Shown: positions 1-31,152 of the stretch, one piece after another
How positions within the stretch are numbered: position 1 is the stretch's first letter
Layout: the number at the start of each line of letters is the position of its first letter
Source: an uncultured Nitrospira sp.
GTDB taxonomy: Bacteria; Nitrospirota; Nitrospiria; Nitrospirales; Nitrospiraceae
Assembly: GCA_902500785.1 (NCBI GenBank)
Contig: CABVRW010000033.1
Span: 1-38,903 of the forward strand
Direction of reading: 5' to 3'
Length of the DNA stretch: 38,903 nt
Notes under the pieces: generated by a model
Database searches by the model: none
Seen by the model: only the letters and a program-made list of their open reading frames with translations
What the model was told of the DNA's origin: nothing
Made by a program: the position numbers and the translations under genes

Positions 1-252
1 TTCTCGGTGGAACATTCCGGGCCAGGAAAGATGGTCGCGCGAGCCGGCATCGTGTTTCTCATGATCTCGTTCGGAGCCGCCTTCGGGTACACCGTCATGG
101 CCCGCATGTCGCTCTTGATCGGCAGGCTGACGGACCTCATCGAGTTTTCCGATGCGTCCTATGGACGCCCTACACTCTGGCTCTCTTTGCTGACCGTCGG
201 CACCCTGATTTGGTTAAGCCGGCGCGGGCGCGCGCTACCGCCCGAACGCTAG
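1..252 (+). CDS. C-terminal part of a membrane protein (cut by window edge)
   Basis: The frame is open from the first base and ends at TAG 250-252, so this is probably the tail of a longer gene that starts before the window. Two hydrophobic stretches are visible: one beginning near GIVFLMISFGAAFGYTV and one near LWLSLLTVGTLIWL. They are joined by a short polar linker, and the tail is basic and Arg-rich. The product is therefore an inner-membrane protein or the membrane-anchoring end of one. ATG 31 could also start a short complete protein of about 73 residues, but it has no clear Shine-Dalgarno sequence. I do not recognise the family. Confidence 0.5.
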   Translation, partial: FSVEHSGPGKMVARAGIVFLMISFGAAFGYTVMARMSLLIGRLTDLIEFSDASYGRPTLWLSLLTVGTLIWLSRRGRALPPER

Positions 253-458: not shown

Positions 459-471
459 GCCGCTCATTATG

Positions 472-1719
472 GAATCAACACCGACCATCACCGCTAAAGA
501 TCCCGCGCAGTATCCGCTATTGCGCAACCTTCAATTCTCGCCGATCAAGGAAGGGGAGGAGCAGTACATCGTGCTCTGGGACCCGACCGGGTTGAGCAAG
601 GAACGACTGGTCCTGCCGTTAAACTATTTCTTCATCGTGCAGCACCTCGACGGAGAGCATAGCGTTCAAGACATCGGCGCAATTTACCTGAAGCGGTTCG
701 GCGAGTTCCTCATGCCGAACAAGGTCGAGCAGTTGCTGACGGATCTGAATACCAAATTGTTTCTGGAAGGACCGCGCACCGAGCAGGCCAAGCAGCAGGC
801 GTTGGCCGCGTACCGGCAAGCACCCAGCCGCTTGCCGCAGTTTGCCGGTCGCAGTTACGAGGCGGACGCCGCCAAGCTTCGCGCCCAGATCAACGGCTTT
901 TTCACCTCCAAGGAAGGGCCGGAGATCAAAGCGTCCGAACATGCGGGCAAACCCATCAAGGCGCTCGTCGCGCCGACTTTCGAACTCAAACATGCCGGAC
1001 CGCTCTATGCCTGGGCCTATAAAGAGCTGCAAGAAGCCCAGCAGCCGGATCTGTACGTGCTCATCGGCACCGCCTACTCAGGGCTCGAACAACTCGTGGC
1101 GATGACGGATAAGGATTTCGAGACTCCATTGGGGCTCGTCAAGGTCGAACGGGCTGTGACCGATCGCCTGCGCGAGCAGATTCCTTCAGCTTTCACCGAC
1201 GAATTGGCACATCACAATGAACATGCATTGGAATTTCAGCTGCCGTTCTTGCAAGAAAGTCTCGGCAAAAACCGGCCGTTTACAATTGTTCCGATCCTCA
1301 CGTCGTTTTCAGCGGACAGCCTGCGCGATCCGCAAGTACGGGAGCAGGTCGAGACGTTTCTTCAGATCTTGAAGGACGCCTTGGCAGCCACCGGCAAGAG
1401 CTACTGCGTGGTGGTGGGAGCGGAACTGGCCCATATCGGCATGCGGTACGGCGACTCGGCACCGCCGACGGATTTTTCCTTCCACCGCTGCATGCAGATC
1501 GACCTTGAGATGCTCAAACATGTCGAGAACCGCGACCCGGAAGAGTTCGCACAGTTCATCCAGAAGGAAAACGATCAGCGCCGCATCTCCGGCTTCTCAC
1601 CCATCTACTCGCTACTGCGCCTGATTCAAGCCGAAACGGGGCAGGTATTACGGTACGATCGCGGCATCACGGATCAGTATAATTCGACAGTCACCTATGC
1701 CAGCATGGCCTTCTTCTAG
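472..1719 (+). CDS. Memo-family (AmmeMemoRadiSam protein B-like) protein with N-terminal PqqD/RRE-like domain
   Basis: The protein has 416 residues. Residues about 15-100 read like a PqqD-type winged-helix/RRE domain (hydrophobic strand pair, then LDGEHSVQDIGAIYLKRFG). Residues about 165-416 form a Memo domain. NEHALEFQLPFLQ (H252) and GAELAHIGMRYGD (H322) match Memo active-site blocks. Two positions are altered: the usual Pro-His is VAPTFELKHAG (T170, with H175 five residues later), and the usual Cys-Gly-Arg-x-Pro-Ile is ISGFSPI (S374). In human MEMO1 the iron ligands reported are H49, H81 and C244, so two of three appear changed. No AMMECR1 or radical-SAM partner is visible. ATG 472 is preferred because the upstream in-frame ATG 457 lies inside a good -10 box. 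The biochemical role is unknown. Confidence 0.85.
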   Translation, partial: ESTPTITAKDPAQYPLLRNLQFSPIKEGEEQYIVLWDPTGLSKERLVLPLNYFFIVQHLDGEHSVQDIGAIYLKRFGEFLMPNKVEQLLTDLNTKLFLEGPRTEQAKQQALAAYRQAPSRLPQFAGRSYEADAAKLRAQINGFFTSKEGPEIKASEHAGKPIKALVAPTFELKHAGPLYAWAYKELQEAQQPDLYVLIGTAYSGLEQLVAMTDKDFETPLGLVKVERAVTDRLREQIPSAFTDELAHHNEHALEFQLPFLQESLGKNRPFTIVPILTSFSADSLRDPQVREQVETFLQILKDALAATGKSYCVVVGAELAHIGMRYGDSAPPTDFSFHRCMQIDLEMLKHVENRDPEEFAQFIQKENDQRRISGFSPIYSLLRLIQAETGQVLRYDRGITDQYNSTVTYASMAFF

Positions 1720-3087: not shown

Positions 3088-3321
3088 GGAGATGAATTTA
3101 ACAGGGAGTAGGTTTCAGCGGCAAGGGGTCCGGACGTTCATCTGCTGAAAGAGATCCGGCAACAGTCCACAGGAATGGCGTGCAAAAGATACGCGCCACT
3201 TCGACTGCAGGCATGACGATCACCGGGATTGTTGCCGGCGGAGGAAGAGAGTATTCTTCGGGCGGCCGGACCAACCAACCTTGAGCCAACTGGTACCGCA
3301 GCCGATTGGAGAGGGGGCCCT

Positions 3322-4851
3322 ATGGGTGAGACGGGAATTCTCAACGTCGATCTGGCGGATGTGTGGGGACAAAAAGGGCGGAAGAAACTCATCCGGACCA
3401 TTGCCTGGGGGGACGAAGTGACGGTCTTGAAAGGGACCGCGACACACCTTGAAGTCGGAATCACCGTCTTCCGCGAGAAACCGGACGGCAGTATCCTCCC
3501 CGAATCGGTCACCGGCTACATCGAACCGAACAAATCGTCTCGCCTCAAGACCGCCAATCTGGTTAGACCCCTCATAGAGAATCAGGTCCTGAAGGTCAAT
3601 TTCGTCGATGTGCAACAGGGCGACGGCACGGTGATCGAATCGCCTGACGGGAAGATTATTCTGGTTGATGGGGGCGACAATCAGATGTTCGCACGGTACC
3701 TGGCCGGACGTTTTCGCGGCACCACCGCCGAAAGCCCAAAGGACATAGACTGCATCATCGTCACACACGGAGATGCCGACCATTTCGCCGGCCTCAGCGA
3801 GATTCTGAAGTCGGAAACGAACCAGGTGAAGCGCAAACGCCTGTTCATGCAACCGAAGCGCGTCTATCACAACGGAATCGTCAAACGCCCGACCACGATG
3901 AATAACAAAGCGGTTCCAGAGACGAAACTGCTGGGACCGACCAAGACGGTCGACGGACAACTCTTTCTCACACGGCTGGAAGAGAATCTCCTCACCGTGG
4001 CTGATTCCGAGATGAACGTGCCGTTTCGAAACTGGAAGAAGACGCTCTCCACCTACAACAGCCGACGCGAAGTGGGCTTCCGGCGTCTCCAGATCGGCGA
4101 CAATCAGGCCTTCGAGTTTTTCAATGCAGGCGACCTGCGAATCGACGTACTGGGGCCCATGACCGCTACAGTGGGCGGACAACCGGCGCTGACGTTCCTC
4201 GGTGAACCGCCCAACGGACCGAGAATCGGTCATGAGTCGCTGAACGTCAGCGAGGACGGCTTCACAGGCCATTCCGCGTCTCACACCATCAACGGCCATT
4301 CGATTGTCTTGCGGCTGGTCTATGGAGGGTTCAGCTTCTTGTTTTCGGGCGATCTCAATGATGAAGCCAGTCGGTTTCTCGCACGGGAGCACAACCGGGG
4401 CAACCTGAACCTGAGGTCGGAGGTCTTCAAGGTCCCGCATCATGGTTCAGCGGATTTCTCCGGTGCATTCATTCAGGCCGTGTCTCCGATCGTGAGCGTG
4501 GTGTCAAGCGGAGACGAAAGCGCGCGAAAAGAGTACATTCATCCGCGGGCGACCTTGATGGGAGCGTTAGGAAAATGGTCGCGAGTCCCTGAACCACTTA
4601 TTTTTGCAACCGAGTTGGTCGCGTTCTTCGAGACGGAGGGACTATCCCGCCTCGCGGAAGAGAAGGTCGCCAAGAAACGCGGTCCGTTCTTCGGATTCAG
4701 CCGCACGGCCTATGGCCTGGTGAAGACCCGCACCGATGGGAAACGATTGTTCGTCTATACGGACAGCGGGAATATCCAAATGAAAGAGGCATACGCCTAT
4801 GCTCTCGATACGTCCGGGGTACCACAACCGGCCGAAGTCATTCGCGCATGA
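3322..4851 (+). CDS. ComEC/Rec2-type metallo-beta-lactamase-fold hydrolase, soluble
   Basis: The protein has 509 residues. After an N-terminal region of about 85 residues that looks beta-rich (possibly SH3-like, ending VTGYIEPNK), the metallo-beta-lactamase fold begins at VNFVDVQQGDGTVI. It carries VTHGDADHFAG (metal site, H149-H154) and, about 190 residues later, FLFSGDLNDE and KVPHHGSADFSG. The HxDxDH and PHHGS forms are those of the ComEC C-terminal domain, but there is no membrane channel. A hydrolase acting on phosphodiester or nucleotide substrates is likely; the substrate is unknown. ATG 3322 is chosen because GAGAGGGGG lies just ahead of it; the frame stays open back to TTG 3229. The long segment between the two metal motifs is unusual. 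The stop codon overlaps a possible hairpin. Confidence 0.8.
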   Translation: MGETGILNVDLADVWGQKGRKKLIRTIAWGDEVTVLKGTATHLEVGITVFREKPDGSILPESVTGYIEPNKSSRLKTANLVRPLIENQVLKVNFVDVQQGDGTVIESPDGKIILVDGGDNQMFARYLAGRFRGTTAESPKDIDCIIVTHGDADHFAGLSEILKSETNQVKRKRLFMQPKRVYHNGIVKRPTTMNNKAVPETKLLGPTKTVDGQLFLTRLEENLLTVADSEMNVPFRNWKKTLSTYNSRREVGFRRLQIGDNQAFEFFNAGDLRIDVLGPMTATVGGQPALTFLGEPPNGPRIGHESLNVSEDGFTGHSASHTINGHSIVLRLVYGGFSFLFSGDLNDEASRFLAREHNRGNLNLRSEVFKVPHHGSADFSGAFIQAVSPIVSVVSSGDESARKEYIHPRATLMGALGKWSRVPEPLIFATELVAFFETEGLSRLAEEKVAKKRGPFFGFSRTAYGLVKTRTDGKRLFVYTDSGNIQMKEAYAYALDTSGVPQPAEVIRA

Positions 4852-28248: not shown

Positions 28249-29223
28249 ATGCGTCTGACCTTTACCATCCAGCGTTTCAGCCCCGAAACCGATCACCACC
28301 CTCACCAGGAGGATTACCGTCTCGACATCGGACGGGGCATGACCGTGCTCGAGGCCTTGATCCGCATCAAGAACGAACTCGACGGCCGGTTGGCGCTACG
28401 CTATTCCTGCCGCTCCGCTATTTGCGGTTCCTGCGCCATGCGCATCAACGGCACGGAAAAACTAGCCTGCCGCACCTCCATTCGCAAAGAACTCGAACGC
28501 CATGGTCGAATTTCGATCGAGCCCTTGCCGAACCTCTCGATCATCAAAGACCTCGTGGTCGACATGTCTTCGTTCTGGGAGAAGATCCAGGCCGTTACTC
28601 CCTGGCTGACCCCCGTCACGCATCCCACCAAACGATACGGGTCATTCGGGCAACTGCGGCTGTTGCCGGACACTTACCAGTTTCACAATGTGGATGCCTG
28701 CATCATGTGTGGAGCTTGCGTGGCCGCCTGCACCTCGCATGAAGTCTCTCGAGGTTTTCTTGGCCCGGCGGCGCTGGCAAAGGCCGCACGATTCGTCGCA
28801 GATCCACGCGAACCAATCGACGCCAAGCAAACGAGACTGACCGCATTGCAAGAAGCCGATGGCATCTGGGATTGCACACGGTGCAACATGTGCGTGCAAG
28901 TCTGTCCCAAGGATGTCCAACCGATGGAGGCCATCATTCGATTGCGCCGTTCCTCACTCCGGCATGACTTGACCTCAGCCGAAGGCGCGCGGCACATCAC
29001 CGGCTTCGTCGAGCTGGTCCGACAAGAGGGACGCTTGAATGAAGCGCTGATGCCGCTAAAAGTCATCGGGCTCAACCTGCGACGCGTCCTCGGCGTGATG
29101 CCACTGGGTATCCGCATGTGGCTCAAGGGCAAAGTTCCGCTTCCCTTCGGCCATACCATCCCGGGCATCGAGCAGGTCCGAGCCATCTTTTCCGCCGTAC
29201 GTCGTCGGGCTCGACGCGTCTGA
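28249..29223 (+). CDS. Succinate dehydrogenase/fumarate reductase-type iron-sulfur subunit
   Basis: The 324-residue protein is longer than standard SdhB (about 240). The N-terminal plant-type [2Fe-2S] domain has C54, C59, C62 and C74 (YSCRSAICGSC). The C-terminal domain has two full ferredoxin-type sets: CIMCGACVAAC (151, 154, 157, 161) and CTRCNMCVQVC (209, 212, 215, 219). Canonical SdhB has no Cys at the position of C212 and so binds [3Fe-4S]; here a second [4Fe-4S] is likely, as in some archaeal and epsilon-proteobacterial (E-type) enzymes and HdrC-like proteins. A C-terminal extension of about 100 residues is basic. It should carry electrons between a flavoprotein and a membrane or HdrB-like partner, none of which is adjacent. 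ATG 28249 follows a TTTCACGTTTCACG direct repeat. Confidence 0.88.
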   Translation: MRLTFTIQRFSPETDHHPHQEDYRLDIGRGMTVLEALIRIKNELDGRLALRYSCRSAICGSCAMRINGTEKLACRTSIRKELERHGRISIEPLPNLSIIKDLVVDMSSFWEKIQAVTPWLTPVTHPTKRYGSFGQLRLLPDTYQFHNVDACIMCGACVAACTSHEVSRGFLGPAALAKAARFVADPREPIDAKQTRLTALQEADGIWDCTRCNMCVQVCPKDVQPMEAIIRLRRSSLRHDLTSAEGARHITGFVELVRQEGRLNEALMPLKVIGLNLRRVLGVMPLGIRMWLKGKVPLPFGHTIPGIEQVRAIFSAVRRRARRV

Positions 29224-29228
29224 CGCCT

Positions 29229-29669
29229 ATGCCGGGCCACTTTCGATTCCTCGACGATATCGCGCTGGCCGATATGGCATTCGACGCCGACGGAGACTCT
29301 CTGCCGGCGCTCTTCGATGCCGCAACGCGGGCCCTCATCGAAAGCCTGGCTGATCCGTCCACCATCGCCCAGACGTGGCGCCAGACCGTGGACTTGGGCG
29401 CACCGGACATCGAGACGCTCCTCTTCGAGTGGCTGGGTCGACTCGTATATTTCAAGGACGCGCAGGGTGTGGTCTTCCATCAGGCTACTCTGTCCCTAGC
29501 GCCGACGTCCGATCAGCCAGGCTGGGGCCTCCACGCAGAACTGACCGGAGCACCCGTGGACCTCTTGACGCAGGATCTGCGATCCGACGTCAAAGGCGTG
29601 ACCAAGCATCTTTACGCCGTGACACACGAGGAGGACACATGGAAGGCCCGAGTGGTATTGGACGTATGA
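29229..29669 (+). CDS. Archease, activator of RtcB RNA ligase
   Basis: The 146-residue protein fits archease in length and pattern. The ADM near the start corresponds to the ADI of archaeal archease, keeping the metal-binding Asp; the preceding His-Thr of other members is Ala-Leu here. GDSLPALFDAATRAL and the ending VKGVTKHLYAVTHEEDTW...VVLDV also match, with the final Asp in place. Archease helps guanylylate RtcB, allows multiple turnovers and widens its NTP use. ATG 29229 lies 5 bp after the SdhB-like stop. An earlier in-frame start at 29118 would lie wholly inside that gene and is unlikely. The stop overlaps a 7-codon ORF that ends on the rtcB start. Confidence 0.85.
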   Translation: MPGHFRFLDDIALADMAFDADGDSLPALFDAATRALIESLADPSTIAQTWRQTVDLGAPDIETLLFEWLGRLVYFKDAQGVVFHQATLSLAPTSDQPGWGLHAELTGAPVDLLTQDLRSDVKGVTKHLYAVTHEEDTWKARVVLDV

Positions 29670-29689
29670 AGGAACCCGATCGTCCCTAG
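29666..29689 (+). CDS. 7-codon mini-ORF linking archease and rtcB (MKEPDRP)
   Basis: ATG 29666 overlaps the archease stop as ATGA, and its TAG (29687-29689) overlaps the GTG of rtcB as TAGTG. Its own AAGGAA lies 13-14 nt before the rtcB start. Whether it is translated is unknown. It could pass ribosomes from one gene to the next, or be chance. Confidence 0.3.
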   Translation: MKEPDRP

Positions 29690-31152
29690 TGATTCATTCC
29701 ATGAACTTACACACCGACATGCAGGTCGTCCGAATCCACGATTACCTCTGGGAAATTCCGCCGTCCGAAAAACCGGGCATGTTGGTCCCCGCCAGAATCT
29801 ATGCCAGTCCAGCCATCCTCGCAGGGATGGATCGTGGCGTCTTCGATCAGGTCACCAACGTAGCCTGTCTGCCCGGCATCCATCGTTATGCCCTTTGCAT
29901 GCCCGACGGCCATTGGGGGTATGGCTTCCCTATCGGCGGCGTCGCGGCATTCAACCCCGAGGATGGAATCATTTCGCCCGGCGGCGTCGGCTACGATATC
30001 AACTGCGGCATGCGATTGATCCGCACCGACCTCTCACGCTCCGAGGTGCAACCCAAACTTGAACTGTTGATGACGGAACTCTTTCGCCGAGTCCCTGCGG
30101 GAGTCGGATCGAGAGGCTTCGTGAATCTGACACGACGAGACTTTCGAGACGTGATGCGGCAAGGCGCGGCCTGGTGCATCGCCAAGGGGTACGGCTGGGA
30201 CGAAGACCTGGAACGGATCGAAGAACGGGGATGTCTTGACGGCGCCGATCCCGCGCACGTCACCGACTACGCCATCGAACGCGGCATCAATCAACTCGGC
30301 ACCCTGGGATCCGGCAACCACTATCTGGAAGTACAGGTGGTCTCCGACAACGGCATCTTCGACCGCGCCACAGCCGCCGCCATGGGGTTGACCGGTCGCG
30401 ATCAAGTCGTGGTGATGGTCCATTGCGGCTCGCGCGGGTTCGGCCATCAAGTGGCGAGCGACTACCTCAAAGTCTTTGAAAAGGCCATGCGCCGGTACGG
30501 GATTTCCGTCCACGATCAGCAACTCGCCTGCGCGCCGTTTCGCTCGCCGGAAGGGCAGGACTATTTCAGCGCCATGAACTGCGCGGCTAACACCGCCTTT
30601 GCCAACCGGCAAGTCATCACGCATCAAATCAGGAAAGCCTTCGAAGCGGTGTTCGGTGAAAGCGCTCGGCGCCTGGGCATGCAGCTGATTTACGATGTGG
30701 CGCATAACATCGCCAAGGTCGAACGCTACGGGGACGGGGAGTGGCTGGTGCATCGCAAGGGTGCCACACGCGCGTTCGGGCCGGGGAGTCTTGAACTCCC
30801 GGCCTGCTATCGCGCGATCGGCCAACCGGTGATCTGCGGGGGCTCGATGGAGACCGGCTCCTATCTGCTGGTCGGCACGGATCAAGCCATGCAGCACACC
30901 TTTGGCTCAACCATGCACGGATCAGGCCGAACCATGTCGCGCACACAAGCCAAGCGTGCGGTCCGTGGCGATCAACTGCTGCGCGACATGAAGCAGCACG
31001 GCATCCTGGTCAAAGCCGTCTCCATGTCTGGCCTGGCCGAAGAAGCCGGATTTGCGTACAAGAACATCTCCGATGTCGTCGACACGGTGGATCACGCAGG
31101 AATCACAAAAAAGGTGGCAGAACTGAAGCCAATCGGCAATATAAAGGGCTAG
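29689..31152 (+). CDS. rtcB: RNA-splicing ligase RtcB
   Basis: The 487-residue protein matches the long RtcB form (about 480 residues) of archaea and eukaryotes more closely than E. coli RtcB (408). Key blocks are YALCMPDGHWGYGFPIGG, SPGGVGYDINCGMRLI (metal Cys), LGSGNHYLEVQ (metal His), HCGSRGFGHQ (metal His), YDVAHNIAKVE and FGSTMHGSGRTMSR (the His that takes GMP). It joins RNA ends carrying 2',3'-cyclic phosphate or 3'-phosphate to a 5'-OH, using GTP and Mn, in tRNA splicing or RNA repair. GTG 29689 or ATG 29701 may start it; the former is coupled by the TAGTG overlap. The adjacent archease is its known activator. No RtcA cyclase or RtcR regulator is seen. Confidence 0.96.
   Translation: MIHSMNLHTDMQVVRIHDYLWEIPPSEKPGMLVPARIYASPAILAGMDRGVFDQVTNVACLPGIHRYALCMPDGHWGYGFPIGGVAAFNPEDGIISPGGVGYDINCGMRLIRTDLSRSEVQPKLELLMTELFRRVPAGVGSRGFVNLTRRDFRDVMRQGAAWCIAKGYGWDEDLERIEERGCLDGADPAHVTDYAIERGINQLGTLGSGNHYLEVQVVSDNGIFDRATAAAMGLTGRDQVVVMVHCGSRGFGHQVASDYLKVFEKAMRRYGISVHDQQLACAPFRSPEGQDYFSAMNCAANTAFANRQVITHQIRKAFEAVFGESARRLGMQLIYDVAHNIAKVERYGDGEWLVHRKGATRAFGPGSLELPACYRAIGQPVICGGSMETGSYLLVGTDQAMQHTFGSTMHGSGRTMSRTQAKRAVRGDQLLRDMKQHGILVKAVSMSGLAEEAGFAYKNISDVVDTVDHAGITKKVAELKPIGNIKG

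Follow-up and report, generated by a model that had tools for sequence, protein, structure and literature searches.

A Nitrospirales Memo protein with a predicted RRE-fold domain lacks the Memo iron ligands and is a candidate peptide- or protein-binding adaptor

The stretch of DNA analyzed here (38,903 nucleotides of contig CABVRW010000033.1 from the uncultured Nitrospira sp. assembly GCA_902500785.1, referred to as the window) contains a gene for a Memo-domain protein in which the positions of all three iron ligands of human MEMO1 are occupied by other residues and which carries an additional N-terminal domain with a predicted RRE/PqqD fold. The gene for this RRE-Memo protein belongs to the single-copy core genes of the order Nitrospirales and is present in nearly all Nitrospira-type nitrifiers. 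With its iron-site residues lost, the product probably serves as an adaptor that binds peptides or proteins, in contrast to the iron-binding "AmmeMemoRadiSam system protein B" suggested by annotation. The original prediction had placed the start of the gene at 472, which is the second codon (Glu2) of a 416-residue protein whose ATG lies at 469. All residue numbers are counted from that ATG, and the numbers given in the prediction (T170, H175, H252, H322, and S374) are correct on this count. Among the best 80 of 163 relatives, the nearest named record, from Nitrospira sp. RBC_NOB1 (L104), is 99% identical, and the homologue of Nitrospira defluvii (L108) shares 93% identity with the window protein. 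The features are as follows.

1 to 252, forward strand: 3' end of the last membrane-protein gene of the GlmL/DUF6754 operon, truncated where the contig begins (its product matches the L095 protein with 147 bits)
469 to 1719, forward strand: RRE-Memo coding sequence, an open reading frame with ATG at 469, an alternative in-frame ATG at 457, and its stop ending at 1719
514 to 771, forward strand: RRE/PqqD-fold domain, residues 16 to 101 (predicted from AlphaFold2 models, matches to solved RREs, and a weak sequence signal)
817 to 1716, forward strand: Memo domain, residues 117 to 416 (Pfam, NCBIfam, and MEMO1 superposition)
976 to 978, forward strand: T170, at the position of MEMO1 ligand H49 (His in 12 of 118 covered relatives)
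1075 to 1077, forward strand: Y203, at the position of MEMO1 ligand H81 (His in 59 of 118 covered relatives)
1222 to 1224, forward strand: H252, at the position of MEMO1 H131, a second-shell nonligand (His in 101 of 119)
1432 to 1434, forward strand: H322, at the position of MEMO1 H192, a second-shell nonligand (His in 119 of 119)
1588 to 1590, forward strand: S374, at the position of MEMO1 ligand C244 (Cys in 0 of 118 covered relatives)

The identity of the Memo domain, already recognized in the original prediction, is borne out by profiles and by fold. The protein matches the Pfam profile PF01875 with 137.6 bits (cut-off of 27) and the NCBIfam profile TIGR04336 with 123.7 bits (cut-off of 26), the latter over the whole model. 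The AlphaFold2 model of the full protein (mean pLDDT of 85.5) superposes on human MEMO1 (PDB 7KQ8 and 3BCZ) with a Z score of 30.5 and a root mean square deviation of 2.6 Å over 273 aligned residues, whereas class III dioxygenases superpose less well (Z of about 15 to 18). Residues 4 to 295 of MEMO1 align to residues 117 to 416 of the window protein, and the match contains no counterpart of the N-terminal domain. The primary molecular function of MEMO1 itself remains unknown, according to the available portion of a MEMO1 study (PMC11081632).

In the same available portion of that study, the iron of MEMO1 is coordinated by H49, H81, and C244, and the H49A and C244S variants bind no iron; D189, H131, and H192 are not among the ligands (PMC11081632). 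The equivalent positions in the window protein were set by a profile alignment with MEMO1 and by an alignment that included seven canonical Memos from Nitrospirales. Residue counts refer to 119 unique long forms (proteins of the RRE-Memo type), after rows scoring less than 200 bits to the window protein, including L216, had been dropped. The window protein shares the Memo fold and the residues at the H131 and H192 positions with MEMO1 but has Thr, Tyr, and Ser in place of the three ligands. Loss of the first His (T170) and of the Cys (S374) had been predicted, and both alignments agree; the second ligand, H81, which the prediction had not mentioned, is also gone (Y203). Position 374 is occupied by Ser in 97 long forms, Leu in 9, Gly in 7, Ala in 2, and Met, Phe, and Thr in 1 each, with one gap. 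The residue replacing Cys differs among three genome families (named records otherwise unplaced were put in f1), with Ser predominating in f1, Leu predominating in f3, and Gly in f2, which is the pattern expected of a position freed from its role as a ligand. His was found at both 170 and 203 in only three sequences, all of which have Ser at 374, and the full His-His-Cys triad was found in none of the 119 unique long forms. The arrangement of two His and one Glu used for Fe(II) by LigB-type class III extradiol dioxygenases was also not found, the window protein having T170, Y203, and S374.

The prediction had noted that H252 and H322 are kept and had suggested that the protein may use another metal site. 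Both residues are present, but they match nonligands of MEMO1, and the rest of the alignment does not support the idea: H252 is replaced by Gln in 16 of the 119 long forms, only 21 of the 118 homologues covered have His at position 175, and no new conserved set of His or Cys residues appears near the old site. H175 was considered as a displaced ligand and rejected for its poor conservation. C313 was considered as a displaced Cys; this single clade-specific Cys, present in at least 99% of long forms, with Leu in its place in the 7 canonical proteins, begins the strand at 312 to 317, six residues before the D189 position (319), and was therefore not counted as part of the site. Sequence alone does not reveal metal binding, and Ser, Tyr, Asp, or the backbone could still hold a metal.

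Close relatives showed a median dN/dS of 0.025 for residues 16 to 101 (332 pairs) and of 0.081 for residues 117 to 416 (336 pairs), the pairs not being independent. Judged by these ratios, purifying selection on the gene is strong and is strongest on the RRE domain, and the gene is not decaying. H248, E255, and H322 are conserved in at least 99% of the 119 long forms and are conserved in the 7 canonical Memos compared as well. A further set of residues is present in at least 99% of long forms and different in the seven canonical Memos, including W182, K215, R326, D329, T334, D335, K350, R371, D397, R398, D402, Q403, N405, S406, and T407. Part of this clade-specific set sits in a loop (325 to 345) that was modelled at low confidence and that may become ordered on binding.

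The N-terminal domain was modelled as three strands (22 to 28, 31 to 37, and 46 to 50) followed by three helices (51 to 57, 66 to 77, and 83 to 97), and AlphaFold2 returned the same elements when the domain was folded alone (pLDDT of 80.8). This βββ-ααα order is given as a requirement for RREs in the available text of the RRE-Finder report (PMC12710340). In two fold comparisons the domain matched the RRE of TbiB1 with its leader peptide at Z scores of 8.7 and 8.4 and winged helices of Rickettsia methyltransferases at 8.8 and 8.2, where a Z of around 8 may mean only a common arrangement. PqqD (5SXY) was matched at 7.2 and the RRE of PbtF at 6.3, and further solved matches included ThcOx, CteB, TruD, and MccB, as well as the JmjC proteins MINA53 and NO66. 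Since the methyltransferase and JmjC winged helices score about as well as the RREs, the RRE fold is no proof of peptide binding.

Other comparisons of the same domain gave fainter signals. The structure search Foldseek with the domain alone returned nothing at an E value of 0.001 or better, TbiB1 ranking first at 0.63. The sequence signal is weak. The PqqD profile scored 13.9 bits (cut-off of 23.4), and PaaA-like_N matched 6 of 19 homologues with at best 20.4 bits (cut-off of 27). An hhalign comparison with 12 Nitrospirales PqqD-type sequences gave a probability of only 13.5%, yet its score of 22.6 exceeded 398 of 400 column-shuffled controls; the two shuffles above it scored 132 on 4 and 14 columns and are presumed artefacts but were counted. 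The proposal of an RRE-like N-terminal domain thus stands in its predicted winged-helix βββ-ααα fold and its resemblance to solved RREs, while the sequence profiles stay under their cut-offs. From the models, the domain likely has the RRE fold, and peptide binding by it is plausible. The leader-binding RREs of TbiB1, PqqD, and PbtF share the fold and can be superposed on the domain; unlike them, it is fused to Memo, falls below the PqqD cut-off, and has no precursor recognized nearby. No clear conserved short open reading frame (22 to 110 amino acids) was found within 2.5 kb of 119 loci, and by inspection the short-reading-frame clusters in that range resemble shadow frames of known genes or repeats; a precursor encoded farther away is possible. 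The genome containing the window also encodes one free-standing PqqD-type protein above the cut-off (72 bits; L233 and related loci), and PqqD matches were found in 21 of 31 genomes searched.

Of 61 genomes searched, including the one that contains the window, 53 encode a complete or nearly complete long form. In a wider sample, 128 of 143 genomes of the order matched at an E value of 1e-40, and among 395 sampled genomes of the phylum, only G132 matched outside the order. In a scan of genome contigs, the best 80 of 163 relatives were all Nitrospira-type records. Viral contigs yielded no long form, and plasmids yielded no long form and one canonical Memo, which had no N-domain match. The protein from G132 (L216), whose N terminus is cut by a contig end, has a partial N-domain and a long-type Memo domain; in contrast to the Nitrospirales proteins, it has the complete set of ligands, His, His, and Cys (in APH, GTGH, and KICG), so the long architecture exists with an intact triad too. 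L216 clusters with the long forms and apart from the canonical Memos (100/100 support), and it may branch either within or outside the Nitrospirales long forms. It comes from one contig of a 74%-complete bin, and although its GC content (56.4%) and tetranucleotide correlation (r of 0.90) fit that bin, a stray contig is possible. RRE-Memo proteins with an intact triad are expected in other phyla.

The prediction had noted that no AMMECR1 or radical SAM partner lies nearby, and this absence extends to the entire genome, in which no AMMECR1 match and no second Memo were found and the best match to the radical SAM profile TIGR04337 scored 20.6 bits against a cut-off of 220. Genes for AMMECR1 were present in 7 of the 61 genomes, all 7 of which encode a canonical short Memo; the six in which AMMECR1 and the long form co-occur thus have this Memo as a separate protein. 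A canonical Memo accompanies the long form in 7 of the 53 genomes, and the long form is the only intact Memo in 46. G034 has a broken 27-bit Memo remnant beside its long form. None of those 46 genomes has AMMECR1, and a radical SAM enzyme over the cut-off was found in 5 of them, each time on another contig.

The membrane-protein gene cut by the start of the contig encodes 251 amino acids in the relative L095, where it closes a co-directional operon (L095, 1335 to 8510) with genes for a GlmL/MutL-like protein, a barrel-sandwich protein that weakly resembles RnfC_N, a DUF6754 protein, and three membrane proteins, for which no family match over the cut-off was found. A literature search found no paper with the word DUF6754. 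The last gene of this operon lies upstream of the long form in the same direction in all 79 f1 loci with at least 1.3 kb of upstream sequence and in 5 of 5 f2 loci; in loci with enough upstream sequence, DUF6754 was found upstream in 67 of 67 (f1) and 2 of 2 (f2) and GlmL in 54 of 55 (f1), these being counts from related loci that are not independent. The counts omit the window and L095 to L103, which repeat counted genomes or were fetched by place. In f3 the operon was upstream of the long form in none of 8 loci, and DUF6754 was absent from all 12 genomes, each of which has the long form. Conversely, all 4 f4 genomes have DUF6754 and lack the long form, and G011 lacks both. These counts leave the operon as a candidate partner that is not required.

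These observations are consistent with a protein whose N-terminal winged helix most likely binds either a short peptide or a partner protein's tail. The Memo domain has kept its fold, while the sequences show that the His-His-Cys iron site has been lost across the order, and the domain most likely binds no iron at the old site. The protein is expected to be an adaptor without iron that acts in docking or regulation, or else a nonredox enzyme on the remaining conserved pocket, which would comprise H248, E255, and H322 together with the clade-specific R326 to D329, R371, and D397 to T409. In f1 and f2, the first candidate partner would be one of the proteins encoded by the membrane operon immediately upstream; because f3 keeps the gene without the operon, the partner may be something else. 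We put the chance that RRE-Memo is an iron-free adaptor docking peptides or tails at about even. The distinct Memo subtype proposed in the original prediction is supported, with an RRE-fold N-terminal domain, a degenerate metal site, and no AmmeMemoRadiSam partners; it is conserved across the order and under purifying selection.

In line with that prediction, the protein could still be a metalloenzyme, with the metal bound through other residues (e.g., H248, H252, E255, and H322) and the RRE guiding a peptide substrate. The RRE fold would suit peptide guidance, and H248, E255, and H322 are among the most conserved residues of the long forms; however, the same three are found in the canonical Memos and so define no new site, H252 varies, and the MEMO1 residues equivalent to H252 and H322 coordinate no metal in the portion of the MEMO1 study available (PMC11081632), so that we regard a metalloenzyme as unlikely. 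A similarly low probability is assigned to the possibility that RRE-Memo belongs to the upstream GlmL/barrel-sandwich/DUF6754 membrane system, as a subunit or as its regulator, and docks to a membrane-protein tail. The near-constant, same-direction linkage in f1 and f2 and the joint absence of both genes from G011 speak for this, but the loci counted are related, and f3 and f4 each have one element without the other. It seems very improbable that RRE-Memo is an ordinary B protein of the AmmeMemoRadiSam system that has a working canonical site and an N-terminal decoration. The whole-model match to TIGR04336, far above its cut-off, is a real likeness to that protein; the differences are the loss of the triad, the extra RRE domain, and the lack of the A protein (AMMECR1) and of a matching radical SAM enzyme in the same genome, and where AMMECR1 and the long form do co-occur, a separate canonical Memo is present. 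RRE-Memo is thus most likely not the B protein of such a system, and naming this Nitrospira core gene "AmmeMemoRadiSam system protein B" is misleading.

Fusions of an RRE with Memo (PF01875), the same domain pair as in the window protein, were reported through RRE-Finder as "unprecedented in RiPPs" and of unknown function (mSystems 2025, PMC12710340); the available portion of that report does not discuss the metal site, the Nitrospirales clade, the missing partners, or the operon linkage. A literature search of openly licensed papers found no paper on the Nitrospirales RRE-Memo protein, and the new part is therefore a clade of a known fusion in which the iron site has been lost. Since strong selection preserves the Memo fold in this clade while every iron ligand has been dropped, the clade offers a natural test of iron-dependent roles of Memo, and it points to the use of RREs outside RiPP pathways. 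A broader and doubtful reading is that, in this order of nitrite oxidizers and their kin, an iron-site Memo enzyme became a regulator that is free of iron, docks peptides, and works mainly through its RRE. In two families, this regulator would be coupled to an uncharacterized GlmL/DUF6754 membrane machine; this would place an RRE outside natural-product biosynthesis.

The RRE-Memo gene is flanked on both sides by a strongly palindromic dispersed element (298 to 422 and 1745 to 1794; fold z of -7.6 versus shuffles), which has 20 matches in its own genome and resembles repeats of the REP or MITE type; a search with Rfam gave no match to the element or elsewhere in the window. Farther along the window, a 540-amino-acid protein with a metallo-beta-lactamase fold is encoded at 3229 to 4851, with ComEC-like and Avs1a/6A-MBL-like matches far below the cut-offs. 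At 29118 to 31152, adjacent genes for archease and the RNA ligase RtcB directly follow a gene for an SdhB-like iron-sulfur protein, whose open reading frame overlaps that of archease.
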